IMG/VR virus record: IMGVR_UViG_3300044846_003660
Location: 1 to 34,073 of that record
Reading direction: 5' to 3' (one strand)
Source of the DNA: a virus
Length of the DNA: 34,073 bases
Translations under genes and position numbers: made by a program
Part shown: piece by piece, positions 24,041-33,277 of the stretch
How the letters are laid out: the number at the start of each line of letters is the position of its first letter
Position numbering within the stretch: the first letter of the stretch is position 1
Notes under the pieces: generated by a model
Database searches by the model: none
The model's input: only the letters and a program-made list of their open reading frames with translations
What the model was told of the DNA's origin: nothing

Positions 24041-24328
24041 ATGGAATTCAAAAGACTAAAAGGTAATCGCATCTATCTTAGCATCCCTGAATTTAAGGAA
24101 AGTCCTATATACCTGTCAGAGGAGCTCAAAGAAGCATTCATTCTTGAGGAGAAGAAGAAATACACAAAGCTTGAAGTGTATGCTGTAGGAGATATTGTAC
24201 ATGATGTAGAGCGTGGAGATGTGGTTCTTGTAGATCCTAACGCTCTTCAGAATGCTCCTGTTATTAGCCTTAGTGAGAATAAGAAAGTGATTCTTATTTC
24301 ACCATTTGACATTATACATATTTGGTAA
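24041..24328 (+). CDS. Possible GroES-like co-chaperonin, 95 aa
   Basis: The C-terminal part, EVYAVGDIVHDVERGDVVLVDP and VILISPFDIIHIW, matches the order of strands in GroES-type co-chaperonins (V-Y-A-V-G...V-x-x-GD-x-V-L...I-x-x-F-D-I). Its length is close to that of GroES (97 aa). A mobile loop (SIPEFKESPIYLSEE) may be present. T4 gp31 is a phage example that helps GroEL fold the capsid protein. The call is from pattern similarity; an SH3-like or other beta-barrel protein is also possible. Confidence 0.45.
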   Translation: MEFKRLKGNRIYLSIPEFKESPIYLSEELKEAFILEEKKKYTKLEVYAVGDIVHDVERGDVVLVDPNALQNAPVISLSENKKVILISPFDIIHIW

Positions 24329-24329
24329 T

Positions 24330-25064
24330 ATGTTATCAGCAAAATGCATTACATATGGAAGAGTGGAGTTTCTGGAAGAGTCACTCCACTCTTTCCTTAC
24401 GCAAGACTACGATGGTCCTAAAGAGATGGTGATTGTTAATGACTACCCTCTCCAAAAGCTTATATTTGACCATCCTGATGTACGTATAATCAATCTTGAT
24501 TATACGTTTGATAACTTAGGAAAGAAGGAGAACTTTGCTACAGAACAATGTAGAGGAGAGATTATTATGCAATGGGATGATGATGATGTAGCTATGCCTT
24601 GGCATCTTAAAAATGTAGAGAAGTATTTTACAGATGATGTAAATATTCTTCATTGGGCTGTAGGAGTGTATTACAATGAGCCTAGTATTACTGATGTAGG
24701 ATGGATAGGTAATTCAGGTATTGTATTTAGAAAGTCAACATGGGAAGCTATAGGAGGTCATCCTATTGAGAATGCAGGATATGACATGACTTTTATACAT
24801 AAACTTGCAGACTATGGAGGAAGACTACTTGCACATCCTCCTAGAGAAGAAGCTAGTTGGTTTTATATGTGGGGAGGGAGAGGCTATCATTGCAGTGGCG
24901 CAGGAACAGACACTCCTGATAGAATGAATGTAATACAAAGACATAGTGGATATATTGAGAGCTTGAGACAGCAGAATAAGATTCCTACAGGAGATGTCTA
25001 TCTACAGCCTCATTGGAAATATGACTATGAACAAAAACTAAAAGACTTTACCAATGCTCGTTGA
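24330..25064 (+). CDS. Family 2-like glycosyltransferase (GT-A fold)
   Basis: This 244-aa protein has LSAKCITYGRVEFLEESL at the N terminus, the entry to the nucleotide-sugar fold. QWDDDDVAMP follows, with the metal-binding acidic cluster at residues 83-86, then IGNSGIVFRKSTWEAIGG, an acceptor-site-like segment. It would transfer a sugar to an unknown target. The start is the ATG at 24330, one base after the preceding stop. The coding sequence carries two strong hairpins near its start. It overlaps the next glycosyltransferase by 11 bases. Confidence 0.82.
   Translation: MLSAKCITYGRVEFLEESLHSFLTQDYDGPKEMVIVNDYPLQKLIFDHPDVRIINLDYTFDNLGKKENFATEQCRGEIIMQWDDDDVAMPWHLKNVEKYFTDDVNILHWAVGVYYNEPSITDVGWIGNSGIVFRKSTWEAIGGHPIENAGYDMTFIHKLADYGGRLLAHPPREEASWFYMWGGRGYHCSGAGTDTPDRMNVIQRHSGYIESLRQQNKIPTGDVYLQPHWKYDYEQKLKDFTNAR
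24359..24393 (+). repeat. Intragenic hairpin 1 in the glycosyltransferase gene
   Basis: AAGAGTGGAGT (24359-24369) and ACTCCACTCTT (24383-24393) form a perfect 11-bp stem with a 13-base loop, 29 bases into the gene. Confidence 0.75.
24482..24507 (+). repeat. Intragenic hairpin 2 in the glycosyltransferase gene
   Basis: ACGTATAATCA (24482-24492) and TGATTATACGT (24497-24507) form a perfect 11-bp stem with a 4-base loop, about 90 bases after the first hairpin. Confidence 0.75.
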
Positions 25065-25626
25065 ATTCATTATTCCCACTTATTACAGACCTGCTCCTCT
25101 CAAGTCAATGTTGGCAAGTTTAATTGCTCAAACAGATGGAGATTGGGGAGCTCTTATTATGATTGATAATGAGAAGAATGAGGAGATAGAATCAATCATT
25201 AATAGCTTTAATGATGAGAGAATCAGACATCATTATATGGACAAAAGATATAATGATTGGGGACATACGCCTAGACAATTAGGAAAGCAAATGAGTGATG
25301 CTGACTACATCATTATGACTGGAGATGATAATTATTACACTCCTAATTTTGTAGAGGAGCTTAAAAAAGCTGTTTTACAATACAACCATCCGGGAGTGGT
25401 ATATTGGGATATGGTGCATTCTCATTATAGATATGAGTATTTTGAATGCAGACTTGGAGGAGGGCAGATAGACATGGGAGCATTTGCTACAAGAAAAGAC
25501 ATTGCTCACGACTTAGTGCTGAATACAGAATATGCAGCTGATGGTTTTTTCATAGAAGAATACAAAAGAAAATACTTCATGGAAAGATCTATCAAAATTA
25601 ATAAGGTGTTATTTGTACATAATTAA
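25054..25626 (+). CDS. Family 2-like glycosyltransferase, 190 aa
   Basis: The N terminus, FIIPTYYRPAPLKSMLASL, is the classic GT2 start. DADYIIMTGDDNYYTPNF holds the metal-binding Asp91-Asp92 pair, and EYAADGFFIEEY may contribute the catalytic acid. At 190 aa it is a minimal catalytic domain. It starts 11 bases inside the previous glycosyltransferase gene and lies 2 bases upstream of the methyltransferase, so the four genes form a single unit. Confidence 0.8.
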   Translation: MLVEFIIPTYYRPAPLKSMLASLIAQTDGDWGALIMIDNEKNEEIESIINSFNDERIRHHYMDKRYNDWGHTPRQLGKQMSDADYIIMTGDDNYYTPNFVEELKKAVLQYNHPGVVYWDMVHSHYRYEYFECRLGGGQIDMGAFATRKDIAHDLVLNTEYAADGFFIEEYKRKYFMERSIKINKVLFVHN

Positions 25627-25628
25627 TT

Positions 25629-26141
25629 ATGAAAAGACTAACAGAAATAGCCAACAAGTATAATTGTGACAAAGGATCTGTAGCTTTTGAAGCACATGGT
25701 TATACAGAGATGTACGAAGAGTATATTCCTTCTAAAGAAAAATTTACACTTCTTGAGATAGGTGTTTGGAAAGGAGACAGTTTAAAGATGTGGAGAGAGT
25801 ACAATCCTCAGCTTATTATTCATGGAGTGGATATTAATCCTCTGATAAAACATGTAGAAAACACTCAAATACATATAGGGAGTCAAACTGATTATAAATT
25901 CATTACAGAATTAGTAACAGAAATATCTCCAGACTTTGTAATAGACGATGGTAGTCATAGATACTCAGATATCATGTCTACGTTTATATTTTTATATCCT
26001 CTGTTAAAGAAAGGAGCATATTATTTTATTGAGGACTTACATGCTTCTTATGCTCATAGAGAGAAGGTGATGAATGACATTGGTGAAATGACAGAATTTA
26101 TTATGGAATGCAATGATAAGCTTCTTATTGTAAAAAAATGA
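25629..26141 (+). CDS. Class I SAM-dependent methyltransferase, 170 aa
   Basis: The Rossmann-like core is visible. TLLEIGVWKGDSLKMW is the SAM-binding Gly motif I. IIHGVDINP has the acidic residue at the end of strand 2. PDFVIDDGSHRYSD is the later motif, with an Asp-Asp-Gly-Ser-His that recalls the cephalosporin-hydroxylase-like sugar and macrocin O-methyltransferases. Between glycosyltransferases it probably methylates the sugar or the acceptor. The stop overlaps the next start by four bases. Confidence 0.78.
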   Translation: MKRLTEIANKYNCDKGSVAFEAHGYTEMYEEYIPSKEKFTLLEIGVWKGDSLKMWREYNPQLIIHGVDINPLIKHVENTQIHIGSQTDYKFITELVTEISPDFVIDDGSHRYSDIMSTFIFLYPLLKKGAYYFIEDLHASYAHREKVMNDIGEMTEFIMECNDKLLIVKK

Positions 26142-26788
26142 AAATCCCTGTCATTATAAATAACAGAGATTTGTACACATGGCCTGTGGCTATGTTGCAT
26201 AGAATCATGAAATATGATGGTGTTGGAGACATTATTATTGTAGACAACGGCTCTACATATCCTCCATTAATACATTGGTATGACAGACAAACTCTTGTTC
26301 ATGTAAAAAGGTGTGAGAATTTAGGACATGGAGGAGCATGGGTGAGCAATGCTGTCAGTGAATTGGGAAGTGATTATTATGTAGTGACAGACAGTGACAT
26401 GGGACTACAAGACACTCCTGATGATACACTAATGGTGTTGTTAGAAAAACTTCAAAACCATTCAGAGCTTGAGAAAATAGGACTAGGACTTAACTGGCAA
26501 ACTGTTCCTGTTGAAAGTCCTTATTATCATAGACTTAATTTATACGAAAAAGATAGATGGGAGAAGTCAAAAGTAGTGGATGATGTATATGTAGATGTAC
26601 AAATAGACACTACGTTTGCTTTATACAACAAACCTCATTATTTTATTGGAGGAGGTAGTATGTCATCTCCTTATGTGGCTAGACATTATCCTTGGGAGAT
26701 TATCAATTATTCTGATGATGAAGAGTTTAAATATTATATTGACAATGCTTCTAGTTCTAGCTCTTATAAGACATTACTAAAACTATAA
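26138..26788 (+). CDS. Glycosyltransferase-like protein, 216 aa
   Basis: The start MKIPVIINNRDLYTWPVAML and GDIIIVDNGSTYPPL have GT2 character. YYVVTDSDMGL provides a DxD motif (Asp85, Asp87). The C terminus ends in a Ser-rich stretch (NASSSSSYKTLLKL). It is the last gene of the rightward unit and ends exactly at the bidirectional terminator. The acceptor is unknown. Confidence 0.72.
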   Translation: MKIPVIINNRDLYTWPVAMLHRIMKYDGVGDIIIVDNGSTYPPLIHWYDRQTLVHVKRCENLGHGGAWVSNAVSELGSDYYVVTDSDMGLQDTPDDTLMVLLEKLQNHSELEKIGLGLNWQTVPVESPYYHRLNLYEKDRWEKSKVVDDVYVDVQIDTTFALYNKPHYFIGGGSMSSPYVARHYPWEIINYSDDEEFKYYIDNASSSSSYKTLLKL

Positions 26789-26813
26789 AGCCCTAGATGT
26801 TCTCTAGGGCTTT
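26787..26813. terminator. Bidirectional terminator between convergent operons
   Basis: AAAGCCCTAGA (26787-26797) and TCTAGGGCTTT (26803-26813) form a perfect 11-bp stem with a 5-base loop. The stem ends in A and T runs on either side, so it can stop the rightward early unit and the leftward late unit. Confidence 0.88.
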
Positions 26814-26838
26814 ATTCATTTAGAAAGACGTTTTTGCT

Positions 26839-27400: not shown

Positions 27401-27538
27401 TTACTTGGATAAACGTTTAGATTTTAGTGGAAACATAGGACTTTTAAGCCTAAGTTTAGAGTCACTCTCACGCATGTAATTGTCCTTTGGTCTAGGATTA
27501 TTTACCTTAGGAGCTTTCTTTGGCTTTCCACTTTTCAT
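27401..27538 (-). CDS. Small basic protein, 45 aa
   Basis: A frame from ATG at 27538 down to TAA at 27401-27403 encodes a Lys/Arg/Pro-rich protein with no hydrophobic core (MKSGKPKKAPKVNNPRPKDN at the start, LKSKRLSK at the end). Its start overlaps the stop of the next gene upstream in the operon (TAATG). It fits the run of short basic proteins here and may be a nucleic-acid-binding virion protein. The function is not recognised. Confidence 0.65.
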   Translation of the reverse strand: MKSGKPKKAPKVNNPRPKDNYMRESDSKLRLKSPMFPLKSKRLSK

Positions 27539-27699
27539 TACATTCCTTTTTTGCTCTTAGAAGCTTTTACAAGCCCTACAGGCTTGGTAGCTTTACCAGT
27601 TTGATTCTTACCAATTGTTCTCTTAGTTTGATTGTAAGAAGCCAATTTGGTAGATGTGCTGCTCTTAGAAGGAGCCAACGTTCCTGCTTTCTTTGCCAT
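27538..27699 (-). CDS. Small basic protein, 53 aa
   Basis: The ATG is at 27699 and the stop at 27538-27540 overlaps the next start. The product is rich in Lys, Ser and Thr (SKSSTSTKL and KASKSKKGM), with no acidic residues. It is a further member of the basic-protein cluster. The function is unknown. Confidence 0.68.
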   Translation of the reverse strand: MAKKAGTLAPSKSSTSTKLASYNQTKRTIGKNQTGKATKPVGLVKASKSKKGM

Positions 27700-27714
27700 T
27701 GTATTTGTTTTTAA

Positions 27715-28092
27715 TTATTTACAACCGTATTTACACTTCTTCATTTTACCACCGCTCTTCATTTTCCCTGCATTCATCTTTGCTCCTGCAATCCTATCAG
27801 CAGCTGTAGGCTTAGGATTTTTGTCTACGCCAGCCTTAACACTGAGCATACCAAATGATCCACCATCCTTAAACTTCTTCTTAGGAACAGACTTCTTAGC
27901 AGGTGTAGATGTCTTCTTAGCAGGTTTGTCGTACATTCCTGTAGCAATGTTAAACCCACTCTCATACGTTGACTTGGATTTAGGAATCATTTTGCCGGGG
28001 AACATTTCACTAGGAACAGAATCTACAGCAGCTCTCTTTTTTGCTACAGATTTTCCCATCTGCGCTTTCTTAACTTTTTTAACAGTAGCCAT
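27715..28092 (-). CDS. Lysine-rich protein with MATVKK head and GGKxKK tail, 125 aa
   Basis: It begins MATVKKVKKAQMGK and ends GGKMKKCKYGCK, ends shared with other genes in this cluster. The middle contains FPGKMIPKSKSTYESGFNIATGMYD and KKFKDGGSFGMLSVKAG, rich in Gly and Lys and probably flexible. The composition suggests a nucleic-acid-binding or packaged virion protein, but no known domain is seen. The shared ends suggest gene duplication or a common targeting signal. Confidence 0.72.
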   Translation of the reverse strand: MATVKKVKKAQMGKSVAKKRAAVDSVPSEMFPGKMIPKSKSTYESGFNIATGMYDKPAKKTSTPAKKSVPKKKFKDGGSFGMLSVKAGVDKNPKPTAADRIAGAKMNAGKMKSGGKMKKCKYGCK

Positions 28093-28093
28093 G

Positions 28094-28429
28094 TTATTTA
28101 GATTTTTTTAGTTTACCACCTTTTTCCATCATAGATGTAGTCTTTTTAGACCCCACCTTACCACCATGCTTTTGTCTTTCGACTGCTTTAATAGTCTTTC
28201 CTTTAATGAAGTCTTTCACTGCACCTCTTGGAACCCTAACCTCTCCTTCAAAATCTTTTATATTTTTCTTACCTATAGTGGTTTTTACATTGGCAGGGAA
28301 GCTTTTCTTTCCTGCTGCATAACCTGTAGTGTCAACAGAATAGTCAATATTTTTACCGCCCCTGCCAATCATCCTACCTGTTAGTCGTTCTCCACTTTGG
28401 GCTTTTTTAAGTTTTTTTACAGTAGCCAT
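28094..28429 (-). CDS. Lysine-rich protein with MATVKK head and GGKxKK tail, 111 aa
   Basis: It starts MATVKKLKKAQSGER, nearly identical to the start of the gene at 27715-28092, and ends EKGGKLKKSK. Between lies a more structured part, NIDYSVDTTGYAAGKKSF and DFEGEVRVPRGAVKDFIKG. It lies 1 base from its neighbour in the operon. The HNH gene at 28467-29105 sits directly upstream and interrupts the cluster. Confidence 0.72.
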   Translation of the reverse strand: MATVKKLKKAQSGERLTGRMIGRGGKNIDYSVDTTGYAAGKKSFPANVKTTIGKKNIKDFEGEVRVPRGAVKDFIKGKTIKAVERQKHGGKVGSKKTTSMMEKGGKLKKSK

Positions 28430-28466
28430 TATTATATATTTTTGATTGTTAGCAATTCCATTTGTA

Positions 28467-29105
28467 TTAATTTAATATTTTTGAACCTTTACTCAAATTA
28501 TCTAAAGCCCATAATGGTTGTAGATTTGTGTAATGATTTAGTCTTATAACATCTTCTTCTGTTTTAGCAGTAGCTAAAGGTATTATATGATCTATATGCC
28601 ATTCTCCATGATTCTCTAAAGTCATTCCTTCTGTAAATTTTTTAGAGATATGATTTATAAACTCTTTAATTGTACATCCTAAAATAACTTCTGTTCTGTC
28701 TGATTTTTTAAAATTTCTTTTACTTCTTTTAAAAGAATGTAAAATTAAACGTCTAATATTATTTTTAAACCTAAAAATAGGTTCATTATCAAATCTTTTT
28801 TTAAAGTAATTTTTAGCATTTAATTTATTGTCTTGTCTATATTCTTTAAAATAATCTTTATTTTTCTCTTTCCATTTTATAATTTTATCACAATTTTCTT
28901 CTCTATATTTTTTATTTTTAAGTTTTAAGTTTTCTTTGTTTGTTTGTTTATAATTTTTTAAATATTCTTTTTTTATTTCTTTATTTTTTTCTTCGTAATT
29001 TTTAATGCATTCTTTACATATAGCTCGATAACCGTCTTTATAACCTTTTCCTTTATAAAAATTTTCAAAGGATTTTAAATCTTTACATTTGCTACATGTT
29101 TTCAT
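28467..29105 (-). CDS. HNH homing endonuclease inserted in the basic-protein cluster
   Basis: The N terminus has a zinc finger (MKTCSKCKDLKSFENFY and CKECIKNY), followed by a very Lys-rich helical linker. The C-terminal part is HNH-like: GEWHIDHIIPLATAKTEEDV with the catalytic DH, and NHYTNLQPLWALDNLSKG. It is extremely AT-rich compared with its neighbours and separates basic-protein genes that would otherwise be adjacent, as expected for a mobile nuclease. Confidence 0.85.
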   Translation of the reverse strand: MKTCSKCKDLKSFENFYKGKGYKDGYRAICKECIKNYEEKNKEIKKEYLKNYKQTNKENLKLKNKKYREENCDKIIKWKEKNKDYFKEYRQDNKLNAKNYFKKRFDNEPIFRFKNNIRRLILHSFKRSKRNFKKSDRTEVILGCTIKEFINHISKKFTEGMTLENHGEWHIDHIIPLATAKTEEDVIRLNHYTNLQPLWALDNLSKGSKILN

Positions 29106-29117
29106 ATTTTATGAAGT

Positions 29118-29408
29118 TTAATTGCAATTCCACTTCTTCAAAGCTAATGCTTTTCTTGTAGGCTTGCCATTTTTTCTCATAGGACCTTTTACTCCTGACA
29201 TTCTAGCGCAAAAACTTTTTCTACGATTGGCAGATTTACTCCCTTTTTTAAGCTTAGAAGGAGGCGTAGTTACAGCCATAGAAAGTTTACTTCCGGGATT
29301 CTCTCTTCTATAAGAGGCAATTCCTTTCTTATTAAGACCACCAGATGCACTCTTTCCCTCTTTACGAGTCCAAGCAGCAGTCTTATGTGATTTCTTTACA
29401 CTAGCCAT
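29118..29408 (-). CDS. Basic Cys-containing phage protein (DUF6321-like), 96 aa
   Basis: The sequence SGGLNKKGIASYRRENPGSK, then NRRKSFCARMSGVKGPM and a C-terminal PTRKALALKKWNC, matches a short family found in several unrelated phages, which I recall as DUF6321. The head MASVKK resembles the MATVKK of neighbours. It is highly basic and may bind DNA. The exact role is unknown. Confidence 0.7.
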   Translation of the reverse strand: MASVKKSHKTAAWTRKEGKSASGGLNKKGIASYRRENPGSKLSMAVTTPPSKLKKGSKSANRRKSFCARMSGVKGPMRKNGKPTRKALALKKWNCN

Positions 29409-29410
29409 GA

Positions 29411-29827
29411 TTATTTCTTTTTATACTTGTAGTCAGGATTGTCCTTATGCCATTTCTTTGTAGCAGCAGCTCCTTGCTTGACAGTTTTGGCTTTACCTAT
29501 TTTACTGAGGTTGATGGTGTCCCATTTTCCTTTATCCATTGTAGGATGGTTCACCATGACATCTCCTTTCTTACCTTTAGGAGAATCCTTCTTGGCTTTA
29601 TACACTACATGCTTTTCACCTCCAGCTTCCACTTTTAGCTTTCCTCCGTTCTTGAGGGCAGAACCTTTGAATACACCTTTCTTTTTAATAAGAGGTCCAT
29701 TGGGTACAGGTGTAATTGCTCCTTTTATGGCAGGGATGGTGTCTCCGTATTTGAGAACACCTTTTCCAACATAAGCTTCTGCTTTCTGTGGATTGTAAGG
29801 ACCAGCTTTTTTAATACTCTTAGCCAC
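29411..29827 (-). CDS. Lysine-rich protein, 138 aa (GTG start)
   Basis: The start is a GTG at 29827 (MAKSIKKAG), overlapping the stop of the gene upstream in the operon by 8 bases. The protein contains VGKGVLKYGDTIPAIKGAI, NGGKLKVEAGGEKHVVYKAK and ends KWHKDNPDYKYKKK. A Gly/Lys-rich centre with some beta character is seen. It shares the GGKLK element with its neighbours. The function is not recognised. Confidence 0.7.
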   Translation of the reverse strand: MAKSIKKAGPYNPQKAEAYVGKGVLKYGDTIPAIKGAITPVPNGPLIKKKGVFKGSALKNGGKLKVEAGGEKHVVYKAKKDSPKGKKGDVMVNHPTMDKGKWDTINLSKIGKAKTVKQGAAATKKWHKDNPDYKYKKK

Positions 29828-29969
29828 CTTTTCTAGCTTTAGCCATTTTCTTTAGTGTCTTTGCAAGTGCTTTCCTCTTAGGAGTACATGTAGTTTTAGT
29901 CATGGGGGTGCAATAGCCCTTGTGCTTAGGGTTAATTGTCTTCTGTATCCATTTCTTATCTGTAGCCAT
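29820..29969 (-). CDS. Small basic protein with Cys pair, 49 aa
   Basis: ATG 29969 to TAA 29820-29822. The sequence has HKGYCTPMTKTTCTPKRKAL, with two cysteines and a Lys-rich C terminus (KTLKKMAKARKGG). It starts 2 bases after the upstream gene stop. The CTPMTK...CTPKRKAL pattern occurs in other short phage proteins, which supports a real gene. The function is unknown. Confidence 0.68.
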   Translation of the reverse strand: MATDKKWIQKTINPKHKGYCTPMTKTTCTPKRKALAKTLKKMAKARKGG

Positions 29970-29971
29970 TG

Positions 29972-30421
29972 TTATTTCTTTTTAGCTATCTTGCCACCCT
30001 TCTTATAATTAGTGCCCATCATTTTATTGACAGAACCTCTAAGTTGTTGACCCATTTGAGGGAATGAGAGTTTAGCAGCTTCCATTTGACCAAGACCTGC
30101 TTTTTTTCTAAGCTTTTGAGCTTTAGAATAATCTCTTGCTAAATCAACAGTGTTATAAGGTTTTCCACCGCCAAGATCTTCAAGTGCCTTCTTATCATTC
30201 TTACCTATTGCTTGTCTCCCTGCTTTATGTTTAGCATACGCTTCATCATATTCTTTTTTAGCAGAAGTTCCTGATTGGGCTTTTTTGATAGTGCCACCTT
30301 TCTTCATGTTACCAAGAGTGCGTTCTTGCACTTTTGTCCAAGCACCTTTAGGATCAACCATAGGAGCTTTTTTCTTTTTGCTAGCTACACCGCCAGCTTG
30401 GTATTTTTTCACGGTTGCCAT
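29972..30421 (-). CDS. Lysine-rich protein with MATVKK head and GGK tail, 149 aa
   Basis: It begins MATVKKYQAGGVASKKKKAP. Internally GGTIKKAQSGTSAKKEY repeats the KKAQSG element found at the start of its neighbour, as if heads had been duplicated. It ends YKKGGKIAKKK. The middle is helical (DLARDYSKAQKLRKKAGLGQ). A nucleic-acid-binding or packaged virion role is an inference from charge and context. Confidence 0.72.
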   Translation of the reverse strand: MATVKKYQAGGVASKKKKAPMVDPKGAWTKVQERTLGNMKKGGTIKKAQSGTSAKKEYDEAYAKHKAGRQAIGKNDKKALEDLGGGKPYNTVDLARDYSKAQKLRKKAGLGQMEAAKLSFPQMGQQLRGSVNKMMGTNYKKGGKIAKKK

Positions 30422-30422
30422 G

Positions 30423-30569
30423 TTATTTCGTTTTAGCTTTTATTTTCTTTTCCTGCTTGAGCATTGCAGCTGTAGGCTTCTTTCCTGAGCCTTTGTTTGC
30501 ACGAATGGAATCCCACAATCCCCATTGAGATGTAGATCCATCTTTTCTCTTAACCATTTTCTTTGCCAT
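30423..30569 (-). CDS. Small basic protein, 48 aa
   Basis: I start at ATG 30569 (MAKKMVKRKDGSTSQWGLWD). The frame is open further upstream to 30614, but that part is the terminator of the holin-like gene, so it is rejected. It is Lys-rich, with a single aromatic patch (SQWGLWDSIRANKG). It is the first gene of the basic cluster in transcription order. Confidence 0.65.
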   Translation of the reverse strand: MAKKMVKRKDGSTSQWGLWDSIRANKGSGKKPTAAMLKQEKKIKAKTK

Positions 30570-30585
30570 CACCTGTAAATTGAAA

Positions 30586-30613
30586 AAGGGTGTTGCCGTG
30601 GAGACAACACCCA
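30586..30613 (-). terminator. Terminator after the holin-like gene
   Basis: On the minus strand GGGTGTTG pairs with CAACACCC across a 9-base loop and a T run follows. It separates the holin-like gene from the basic-protein cluster, which must then be reached by read-through or its own promoter. Confidence 0.75.
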
Positions 30614-30618
30614 TTAGA

Positions 30619-30879
30619 TTAAGAAATCTTTCCTTCGGCTTTCATTCTACCATAGATGGCAAGGACACTACCAACTGCTGCAATTGCTTGGCTGATGATT
30701 ACAGTGACATTTCCTTGAGCTGCTTTCACTGCATCTGCATAAGCTTTCAGTTGATTGAAATCAGCATTCTCAGGGAGCTGAACATCAGGAACTTTAAGCA
30801 CTTCACTGATTACATAACCAAGGGCTGCAATAAGAATGCCCCAAATGGTCTTAGACTGATACCATGATTTTGTTTCCAT
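30619..30879 (-). CDS. Holin-like protein with two membrane segments, 86 aa
   Basis: I start at ATG 30879 (METKSWYQSKTIWG). An upstream in-frame start at 30957 would overlap the neighbouring gene. Hydrophobic segments lie near residues 11-28 (KTIWGILIAALGYVIS) and 59-78 (VTVIISQAIAAVGSVLAIYG). A polar middle and a charged tail (RMKAEGKIS) complete the layout. This two-helix pattern with SWYQSKTIWG at the start is common in phage holins, which form lysis pores in the inner membrane. A terminator follows. Confidence 0.65.
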   Translation of the reverse strand: METKSWYQSKTIWGILIAALGYVISEVLKVPDVQLPENADFNQLKAYADAVKAAQGNVTVIISQAIAAVGSVLAIYGRMKAEGKIS

Positions 30880-30889
30880 ATTGATTGTT

Positions 30890-31135
30890 TTATTCGGTTT
30901 TTTCCACTGCCACTCCTGACCTAACAGCTTTAGCCAATTGTTCTTCAACAATATCATTTGCTGTCATAGCAAGGAATATTTTTTGTGCTTCAGGTGTAGA
31001 GAGTGTTGCTCTCAATGCGTTTAGAATAATTCCAAACTCTCCTGCATTCAATGTGAATGTTGCATCAGGCTTCCATGTATATGCCTTTGAAGGGTCAAAT
31101 TGATTAGAAGCCTCATCATTTTTAACTACGTTCAT
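30890..31135 (-). CDS. Hypothetical late protein, 81 aa
   Basis: The sequence has YTWKPDATFTLNAGEFGIIL, then NALRATLSTPEAQKIFLAMTAND, a helical stretch. It is acidic, with no membrane segment. The promoter at 31155-31185 lies just upstream. The position next to the holin-like gene gives no firm role, and the family is unrecognised. Confidence 0.65.
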   Translation of the reverse strand: MNVVKNDEASNQFDPSKAYTWKPDATFTLNAGEFGIILNALRATLSTPEAQKIFLAMTANDIVEEQLAKAVRSGVAVEKTE

Positions 31136-31185: not shown

Positions 31186-31452
31186 GACAATTGTTCCACC
31201 ACTTGATTTAATACTTTTAGACATGTCCAATCTTATATTGAGCATTGTGTGAAACCTCAACAGCTCCTCTACAATTGCATTTGTATATTTAGGAGCAGAA
31301 GGAACAAGTCTGAAGTGATAACCCTTAGGAACCTTTGTCACTTCTAATATTGCAAACTCATCTACAGAATCAATAATTCCCTCAAGATGTAAGAAATAGA
31401 CAACATCATTGTCTTTCATCACTTCAGGAAGAAACTTTGTGTGCAATTGCAT
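31165..31452 (-). CDS. Hypothetical late protein, 95 aa
   Basis: A mixed alpha/beta protein with DVVYFLHLEGIIDSVDEFAI and GYHFRLVPSAPKYTNAIVEE. Its ATG overlaps the Dps-like gene's stop region by one base. No motif is recognised. It is probably co-translated with the Dps-like gene. Confidence 0.65.
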   Translation of the reverse strand: MQLHTKFLPEVMKDNDVVYFLHLEGIIDSVDEFAILEVTKVPKGYHFRLVPSAPKYTNAIVEELLRFHTMLNIRLDMSKSIKSSGGTIVFDISIE

Positions 31453-31868
31453 CAGCTCAGTGTAAGGAGATAGAGAGTTTTAGCTGCTTCACCACTCAGG
31501 CTGTCAGCAAGATTACAAATGTCATGATATGAATTTGCTTCTCCATATGCCTTCAAATCAGAGGCAAATTGTTTAAGCTCATTCACAACACCCATTGCAC
31601 TAGCGTTATTAACAACAGGTTCCATTTTAGGAGCCTGTACACGCTTTCCTGCATATCCCATAAGCTTCTCCATCACTCCATCTTTGAAGTCATGTACATA
31701 GTCATACAATCCACCAGTTGCTTGATGTTCTGCATAGCTACTAGTTTGCCAATGTATGAGATGCAATTGTTCGTGGAAAAATGTGAGCTTTCCTGCAATG
31801 CTCTCAAGTGTCATTCCTGAAGACCCTTGTTGCATCATTTCTTTAGGGAATATGGTTTTCATTATCAT
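31452..31868 (-). CDS. Dps/ferritin-like protein (DUF5856-like), 138 aa
   Basis: The pattern LTFFHEQLHLIHWQTSSYAE followed by GLYDYVHDFKDGVMEKLMGY resembles the first helices of the Dps/ferritin-like fold (HxxHWQT, then helices with Asp). Phage members of this family, which I recall as DUF5856, are known. The full set of iron ligands is not evident, so iron binding is not claimed. It starts at ATG 31868, overlapping the stop of the Thr-tailed gene, and the next gene follows with a one-base overlap. Confidence 0.65.
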   Translation of the reverse strand: MIMKTIFPKEMMQQGSSGMTLESIAGKLTFFHEQLHLIHWQTSSYAEHQATGGLYDYVHDFKDGVMEKLMGYAGKRVQAPKMEPVVNNASAMGVVNELKQFASDLKAYGEANSYHDICNLADSLSGEAAKTLYLLTLS

Positions 31869-32260: not shown

Positions 32261-33277
32261 TTAATCGTATTTTAAATGATACTTATTGTTTAGCTCAATG
32301 AGCTTTTTTACATAATAGTTGTTGCACAATGTTTGGTTTTGTTCGTTGTTGAGAATGTTAGTGAGATTGTCTGTGAAAGGAATCATTCCTGCATGGTATT
32401 TTCCTTTGTAGAACATTGGTGTTTCTCCATGCATTTCTCCTGTCACACCTGCATTGTGGAATATTCCCACAGTGTCAAGTTTATGAATATGATCAGTGCT
32501 CCATGCAAAGTCCATCTCTTTCACCACCTTAGATTCCATTCCTCTAGCCCAGATGTTCCAAAGCACAGCCCACATGTCTGCACACCAACTTTGAAATCCT
32601 CTGTTCTCATTCTCAAAGAATCTTCTATTTATAGATTGGAGATAGGTGCGAATGTTTATACAATCCGTAATCACCTTTTCCCAAAACTTATCATCTATGT
32701 TCTTGAGAAGATATTGCGCTCCTCCAGAGTTAAGATTGTTTAATTCACATGTTTCTCTTGACACACCAACAGGAGCTGTAATCTCTGCTAATACATCAAT
32801 TGTTTTATATTCTTCAAGCCTTTCAGGAAGTACATCCCTAACCTTGCTGTCAAAATAACTTGCATTAATGTAGCTATTTGTATCACTGACATAACAAACA
32901 TCGTCATCCAAATACTTATCAAGGTTAAAATTGGATGTGAAAAGAATATCACAATCACAATATAACACTGCATGATTTTTCATTTCAGGCTTTGCCTTGA
33001 AATATTTCATCAATGTGTAAGGTCTAAGAATTGGAATGTAAATGGGAATAAGCTTTGAAACATCATCCTCATCTATTTGATAAAAGAATTCAGCTTCTGG
33101 ATATAAATCCTCAAGTCTTTTCCAATTCTCATTTGGCTTTCTGAAGTTTGGTGTGAAAACAAGGACAATAGCTTTATCAGAATGTCCTATTTCTTTCAAG
33201 CTTTCAAGCCAAGCATGTGTTTGCCACATGTAATATGTGTCATCAGGCTGCGAGCATATTATCTTTAGTTGTCTCAT
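32261..33277 (-). CDS. Glycosyltransferase (GT-A, DxD type), 338 aa
   Basis: HAVLYCDCDILF carries a DxD metal motif (Asp108, Asp110), preceded by alternating strands and helices typical of GT-A folds. TSNFNLDKYLDDDVCYVSDT and SWCADMWAVLWNIWARGM follow, and GIFHNAGVTGEMHGETPMFYKG is a Gly-rich acceptor-loop candidate. It would transfer a sugar, probably to a virion protein since it lies in the late unit between a small coiled-coil gene and the Thr-tailed genes. The target is unknown. Confidence 0.78.
   Translation of the reverse strand: MRQLKIICSQPDDTYYMWQTHAWLESLKEIGHSDKAIVLVFTPNFRKPNENWKRLEDLYPEAEFFYQIDEDDVSKLIPIYIPILRPYTLMKYFKAKPEMKNHAVLYCDCDILFTSNFNLDKYLDDDVCYVSDTNSYINASYFDSKVRDVLPERLEEYKTIDVLAEITAPVGVSRETCELNNLNSGGAQYLLKNIDDKFWEKVITDCINIRTYLQSINRRFFENENRGFQSWCADMWAVLWNIWARGMESKVVKEMDFAWSTDHIHKLDTVGIFHNAGVTGEMHGETPMFYKGKYHAGMIPFTDNLTNILNNEQNQTLCNNYYVKKLIELNNKYHLKYD

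Follow-up and report, generated by a model that had tools for sequence, protein, structure and literature searches.

The window analyzed here is the whole 34,073-base IMG/VR record IMGVR_UViG_3300044846_003660, a phage fragment in which nine small basic genes form the end of the late gene block of an uncultured water phage. The most fitting description is that of a cassette-based family of basic phage proteins made late, with KAQxG as a candidate motif for cargo loading. The nine open reading frames (ORFs) follow each other head to tail on the minus strand, beginning at 30569 and ending at 27401; most neighbours overlap slightly or are a few bases apart, one HNH ORF lies among them, and the nine products have isoelectric points of 10.1-11.6 and contain 20-27% lysine (Table 1). 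They are real conserved genes with a cassette architecture, and the motif is confined to small basic proteins and to proteins in the cargo position. It seems quite possible to us, if somewhat short of probable, that the cluster encodes late, lysine-rich proteins which are carried inside the virion and ejected, and that the KAQxG head serves as a docking or sorting peptide. As far as the literature searched shows, the pattern is undescribed so far, and nothing was found there on DUF6321, the family of one of the nine proteins, or on this kind of motif.

KAQxG was first noticed in two large cargo-position proteins of one relative, G003, whose homologues in six other genomes contain 12 motif matches where about 2.8 are expected. 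A fixed motif (K[AYM]Q.G / P[KQ]AQ.G) was counted in a total of 13 relative genomes of 69-114 kb. The first seven genomes gave 16 matches in small basic proteins (0.41 expected), 16 in large proteins (0.89 expected) and 4 in all others (4.95 expected), a count that is not independent as the large class was chosen partly with the motif in view. For this reason the count was repeated with a class defined by position in six genomes that had not been used for the definition of the motif, cargo proteins being assigned, blind to the motif, by their place between the muzzle gene and the giant ORFs. In these fresh genomes 21 matches were found in small basic proteins (0.44 expected) and 15 in cargo-position proteins (1.28 expected, with a maximum of 5 in 200 shuffles), while the other 566 proteins were at chance level (2 versus 3.10 expected); the genomes are related, so that matches in homologues are not independent and the shuffles leave kinship uncorrected. 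This positional test is the strongest evidence. Over the 13 genomes the enrichment in small basic proteins is about 40-fold. In 70 of 92 motif-bearing small proteins the first copy is located within 20 residues of the start.

Composition does not explain the head and tail pattern in our locus set, 80 related contigs from which 307 basic proteins, without redundant ones, were compared with residue shuffles. K[AY]Q.G occurs 115 times versus 2.4 in residue shuffles, MA.[VIK]KK lies within the first 40 residues of 55 proteins versus 1.2, and a terminal GGK..KK is found in 15 versus 0.56, counts which include homologues and hence non-independent events. The initial annotation, made from the window alone, would have given up its proposal if the head and tail motifs were not conserved in relatives, and they are conserved. 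Its description of nine short basic genes (45, 53, 125, 111, 96, 138, 49, 149 and 48 aa, on the correct strand), of a single interruption by a homing nuclease at 28467-29105 and of a second, internal KKAQSG copy in 29972-30421 proved accurate. A shared MATVKK head and GGK..KK tail was overstated for all nine, the full pattern, in which MATVKK is joined by a KAQxG or YQAGG element, being carried by three (27715-28092, 28094-28429 and 29972-30421), in the first of which GGKMKK is not terminal and is followed by CKYGCK. Two others begin with MASVKK (29118-29408) and MATDKK (29820-29969) and lack the remainder of the pattern, and the remaining four have neither head nor tail.

The phage group is, as judged from sequence, distantly crAss-like, since a large relative encodes TerL, the major capsid protein (MCP), crAss ring proteins 1 and 2 and the crAss muzzle (2.5e-33); its MCP is distantly similar to those of Lbo-JY46 and FpV4. 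Leptolyngbya phage Lbo-JY46 is the nearest isolate by MCP, and a cargo-position protein of it has PKAQIG at residue 9. The window, being a fragment, contains no TerL, MCP, ring or muzzle gene. In the relatives, the muzzle gene is followed by two or more large proteins and then by ORFs that reach about 4,250 aa. According to PMC10172136, the same slot in crAss001 is occupied by the cargo proteins gp45 and gp46, which have been found in virions by mass spectrometry and cryo-electron microscopy; capsid and tail are their places of storage, and they are thought to be ejected. Proteins in the cargo slot of phi14:2 are likewise supported by mass spectrometry. The position of the relatives' large proteins between the muzzle and the giant ORFs thus matches the crassvirus cargo slot. 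One of them, V973, resembles the cr8_1 protein of the same slot with a score of 113 (shuffle maximum 55), and its similarity to the portal-bound CARG1 domain of gp45 is weak, with local alignment p values from <0.001 to 0.094 across homologues, above shuffles for most of them. The C-terminal end of gp45 is KKAKGGKVRTKKKKGLTYG (KKAKGGKVRTKKKK). A short SHEE/THEE element is common to cargo-slot proteins (Table 1) and lies, in gp45, within the portal-bound CARG1 domain.

The cluster genes are built as mosaics, K-x-GG or KAQxG marking the joints between cassettes that can replace each other, and a given short unit may stand alone in one phage and be fused in another. In detail, the 30423-30569 unit occurs in relatives either alone or fused after K-x-GG (as in L006), and the 29820-29969 unit is fused onto other proteins in L014 and L068. 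The cassettes observed include DUF6321, GGEKHVVYK...KKWHKDNPDY, KWIQ..., GMLSVKAG...ADRIAGA, SFPDLNKDGKITKADILKGRG, GPVDPKGAWTKVQE and KLPTPVRNKMGY, and further ones exist. The initial annotation had seen shared ends with variable middles; a cassette mosaic fits better, as head and tail look like the junctions found between internal cassettes. K-x-GG or KAQxG was found directly upstream above expectation for five of the nine cassettes tested; within 10 residues upstream, GG or KAQxG precedes DUF6321 in 15 of 26 cases (4.3 expected), the EF-like loop in 19 of 20 (7.2 expected) and KWIQ in 19 of 29 (4.1 expected). The KLPT and DPKGAW cassettes showed no such excess with a search pattern that began inside the unit. 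Some cassettes are shared with unrelated phages, e.g. HTVC027P, whose gp44, encoded between TerL and the capsid gene, consists of an EF-loop-like unit, KKGGS and a KWIQ unit. The EF-hand-like loop of the relatives (DLNKDGKITKAD) is a resemblance only, the EF-hand match being below the cut-off.

The cluster ORFs are clearly real genes under purifying selection where this is measurable: the ratio of nonsynonymous to synonymous substitution rates (dN/dS) is 0.04-0.36 for seven of them, the synonymous rate of 27401-27538 being saturated and suitable pairs being lacking for 28094-28429. The locus is conserved across the 80 related contigs. In most of the clade-1 loci that were mapped, gene order is kept, apart from some rearrangement, in the flanks and for several genes of the cluster, the homologue of 27401-27538 coming last, and in clade-2 loci fewer genes can be recognized while 29411-29827 and 29118-29408 are still adjacent. 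The site differs as well: in clade 2 the cluster lies between MCP and tail genes, whereas in the other clade it closes the late unit; this contrast in placement sets contigs G007, G011, G012 and G014 against G001, G003 and G005. The domain of 29411-29827 has 34 invariant columns (alignment A1) and predicted strands and a helix in residues 62-135; relatives of it are encoded by 121 IMG/VR contigs of up to 114 kb, and none was confirmed among GTDB genome contigs. A fold search with this domain, for which the query model was only moderately confident, gave no match at E <= 0.001. Direct comparison with isolated phages by tblastn gave no match for the genes starting at 28094, 29411 and 29972. Apart from the DUF6321 protein, none of the cluster genes could be placed convincingly in a Pfam, PHROG or NCBIfam family, and the matches to KH, SSP160, dockerin and EF-hand were weak and below the cut-off. 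The HNH ORF, missing in the near-identical locus L002 and present in only one of the 80 loci (L004), is probably a recent insertion and stands outside the system.

The product of 29118-29408 is a member of PF19846 (74.2 bits, curated cut-off 28.5), a family found in 542 phage records and in 15 of 15 large relatives. Elsewhere, in cyanophages and pelagiphages, DUF6321 is encoded in gene blocks for head and packaging functions, where it either stands alone or forms a C-terminal cassette. In cyanophages it forms the C-terminus of a protein encoded between gp16 and gp17, the S-SM1 copy having a CW.GY unit in addition, and in two T7-like phages, one a pelagiphage and one a cyanophage, DUF6321 is located between the scaffold and capsid genes. 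A protein with DUF6321 at its end, S-SCSM1 gp29, carries the annotation of a virion protein, and a virion proteome exists for this phage. The predicted structure of DUF6321 has a local confidence score (pLDDT) of 71 and a template modelling score (pTM) of 0.41. DUF6321 was also found in 73 GTDB contigs (L139-L211), nearly all of them from metagenome-assembled or single-cell genomes of many phyla, which are probably co-binned phage DNA. The closest of these bear the labels Flavobacteriaceae and Sphingobacteriales, which hints weakly at a Bacteroidota host.

We suggest that the lysine-rich proteins would be made late and packed with the DNA and the cargo inside capsid or tail, from where they would be ejected into the cell. 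The head, KK-x-K-[AMY]-Q-x-G, which is also present on large cargo proteins, would act as a docking or sorting peptide that brings structurally unrelated cassettes to one storage zone, and the positive charge would plausibly bind or neutralize packaged DNA. A loading signal is suggested by the near-N-terminal position of the peptide on unlike proteins and by its limitation to presumptive cargo and late small basic proteins, with the capsid targeting sequence of T4 as the precedent (PMC9026906). The proposal is also favoured by the match with the crassvirus cargo slot, by the similarity of V973 to the cr8_1 protein and, weakly, to gp45, by the C-terminal end of gp45, by the clade-2 cluster lying between MCP and tail genes, by DUF6321 in head and packaging blocks of other phages and by the virion annotation of S-SCSM1 gp29. 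Several observations weigh against this proposal. All 11 small basic proteins of G003 lack the strict motif, it is missing from six of the nine window ORFs and from V866, another cargo-slot protein, and copies of it are also internal. PF25725, the family of gp45, does not match the relatives; the profile comparison of V973 with gp45 was unconvincing, hhalign aligning only a short, different stretch, and that of V866 with gp46 gave no match. In S-SM1, a phage with a measured virion proteome, SSM1_115 (T4-GC119), the DUF6321 protein, is nevertheless annotated as hypothetical and not as structural. For DNA binding, the indication is the positive charge.

KAQxG and K-x-GG(K) might instead be flexible linkers at cassette boundaries, shared by the small and the large cargo proteins through cassette exchange and free of sorting information. 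The internal and multiple motif copies would be well explained in this way, and the enrichment of GG or KAQxG upstream of several cassettes and the fusions at K-x-GG or KAQxG agree with it. A linker, however, need neither keep K-[AMY]-Q-x-G so strictly nor lie so regularly close to the start of the protein, nor need it be missing where other proteins of several domains are encoded in these genomes; we regard this main rival as possible but on the whole unlikely. Rather improbable, in our opinion, is a late role outside the virion, i.e. in DNA condensation or packaging, in scaffold-like head assembly or in lysis, with the motif contacting cargo or assembly proteins. The late-unit site in the window, where the neighbour is a small ORF (30619-30957) that has a hydrophobic stretch, the proximity of the clade-2 cluster to MCP and of pelagiphage DUF6321 to scaffold genes, and the annotation of the S-SM1 homologue would agree with such a role, whereas the occurrence of the motif on proteins in the slot of known ejected cargo and the annotation of the S-SCSM1 homologue as a virion protein argue against it.

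The internal proteins of T4 carry a short shared N-terminal peptide, the capsid targeting sequence, on basic and otherwise unlike bodies (PMC9026906), and by analogy the KAQxG head might be a propeptide that is cut off by a prohead protease. A search of 15 relatives for prohead proteases of the S77 and S78 types gave none, while the control, S-SM1, gave S77 at 1.8e-33; the internal motif copies also argue against removal, so that, even allowing for a protease of another type, we consider a propeptide very improbable. Of the sorting or cleavage signal proposed in the initial annotation, sorting is supported indirectly, by the confinement of the motif and its retention in the six fresh genomes, and proteolytic removal of the head is not supported. 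Finally, chance similarity or spurious ORFs arising from a lysine- and glycine-rich composition would fit the low complexity of the sequences, but are refuted by the shuffle tests, by purifying selection and by order and identity kept across dozens of contigs.

Table 1. Cluster genes, carriers of the SHEE/THEE element and neighbouring features. Positions without prefix refer to the window.
Position	Strand	Feature	Remarks
30423-30569	-	ORF, 48 aa (MAKKMVKRKDGSTSQWGLWDSIRANKGSGKKPTAAMLKQEKKIKAKTK)	homologues in 58/80 loci, median identity 80%; dN/dS 0.07
29972-30421	-	ORF, 149 aa, DPKGAWTKVQE cassette; head MATVKKYQAGG, internal IKKAQSG, tail KKGGKIAKKK	homologues in 33 loci, mainly covering the cassette (median 28% of length)
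29820-29969	-	ORF, 49 aa (MATDKKWIQKTINPKHKGYCTPMTKTTCTPKRKALAKTLKK...)	homologues in 41 loci, median identity 82%; dN/dS 0.04
29411-29827	-	ORF, 138 aa, GTG start	C-terminal domain GGEKHVVYK...NHPT.DKG.WDT...TKKWHKDNPDY
29118-29408	-	ORF, 96 aa, DUF6321 (AWTRKEGK...RRKSFCARMSG...KKWNCN)	PF19846, 1.3e-20
28467-29105	-	HNH-like homing nuclease ORF	
28094-28429	-	ORF, 111 aa, head MATVKKLKKAQSG, tail EKGGKLKKSK	no more than 5 loci with homologues at E <= 1e-4
27715-28092	-	ORF, 125 aa, head MATVKKVKKAQMG, GMLSVKAG...ADRIAGA cassette, end KSGGKMKKCKYGCK	homologues in 30 loci; dN/dS 0.18
27538-27699	-	ORF, 53 aa, basic, without head or tail motif	homologues in 8 loci; dN/dS 0.27
27401-27538	-	ORF, 45 aa, basic, without head or tail motif	homologues in 33 loci, median identity 74%
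L087:2338-5259		SHEE/THEE carrier	G003
L096:11440-14988		SHEE/THEE carrier	cr8_1
L094:41987-44515		SHEE/THEE carrier	crAss001 gp45
L091:1868-3322		SHEE/THEE carrier	Lbo-JY46
30588-30612	-	hairpin, 10 pairs, GGGTGTTGTC-TCCAC-GGCAACACCC, T run TTTTTC	18 bases upstream of the first cluster gene
26785-26815		terminator-like hairpin, 13 pairs	meeting point of two convergent gene units
24306-26788, 32261-33277		several glycosyltransferase-like ORFs (judged by eye)	flank the late/early junction
25629-26141		methyltransferase-like ORF (judged by eye)	near the late/early junction
31452-31868		ORF matching DUF5856 (PF19174, 1.4e-12)	directly upstream of the cluster; kept in 43/80 loci

Among the neighbouring features, the hairpin that precedes the cluster might act as a terminator or attenuator; it is confined to the near-identical loci L002-L005 and is hence not a general feature. 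At the late/early junction, the relatives have different glycosyltransferase- or methyltransferase-like ORFs at the same place.

Crassviruses carry several megadaltons of cargo protein. How cargo is chosen for loading is not explained in the available text of the crassvirus structural paper (PMC10172136), and the motif provides a directly testable candidate for a loading signal, which might also serve as a tag by which foreign proteins could be loaded into such phages. A role for DUF6321 and other orphan cassettes that are found in hundreds of aquatic phages is suggested as well. A wider proposal, which we put forward as rather speculative, is that aquatic crAss-like phages use a KKxKAQxG code, independent of the T4 capsid targeting sequence, to load both large ejection proteins and fast-evolving small lysine-rich cassette proteins, some cassettes being traded with unrelated cyanophages and pelagiphages.

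Compared with known systems, the DUF6321 family accounts for a single member of the cluster, the other eight genes being outside any convincing family. Like IPI, IPII and IPIII of T4, the proteins are small and basic with a short common N-terminal peptide and unlike bodies, and the gene set varies among relatives (PMC9026906); the shared peptide near the N-terminus is found on unlike basic proteins here too, in the window on three of the nine. They differ from the T4 proteins by another peptide, by internal copies and cassette mosaics, and by the fact that no gp21-type protease and no family match were found, their packaging being putative. Lysine-rich basic virion proteins of large algal viruses have reportedly been proposed to neutralize packaged DNA, and these DNA-condensing proteins share with the cluster, by description, a lysine-rich and basic character, which is a resemblance only. 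With regard to the crassvirus cargo proteins gp45 (C1, PF25725) and gp46 (C2, PF25712), the nine small proteins are not homologues, the Pfam scan giving neither crAss_CARG1 nor crAss_CARGO2 for them, whereas the KAQxG-bearing large proteins of the relatives occupy the same slot after the crAss muzzle.

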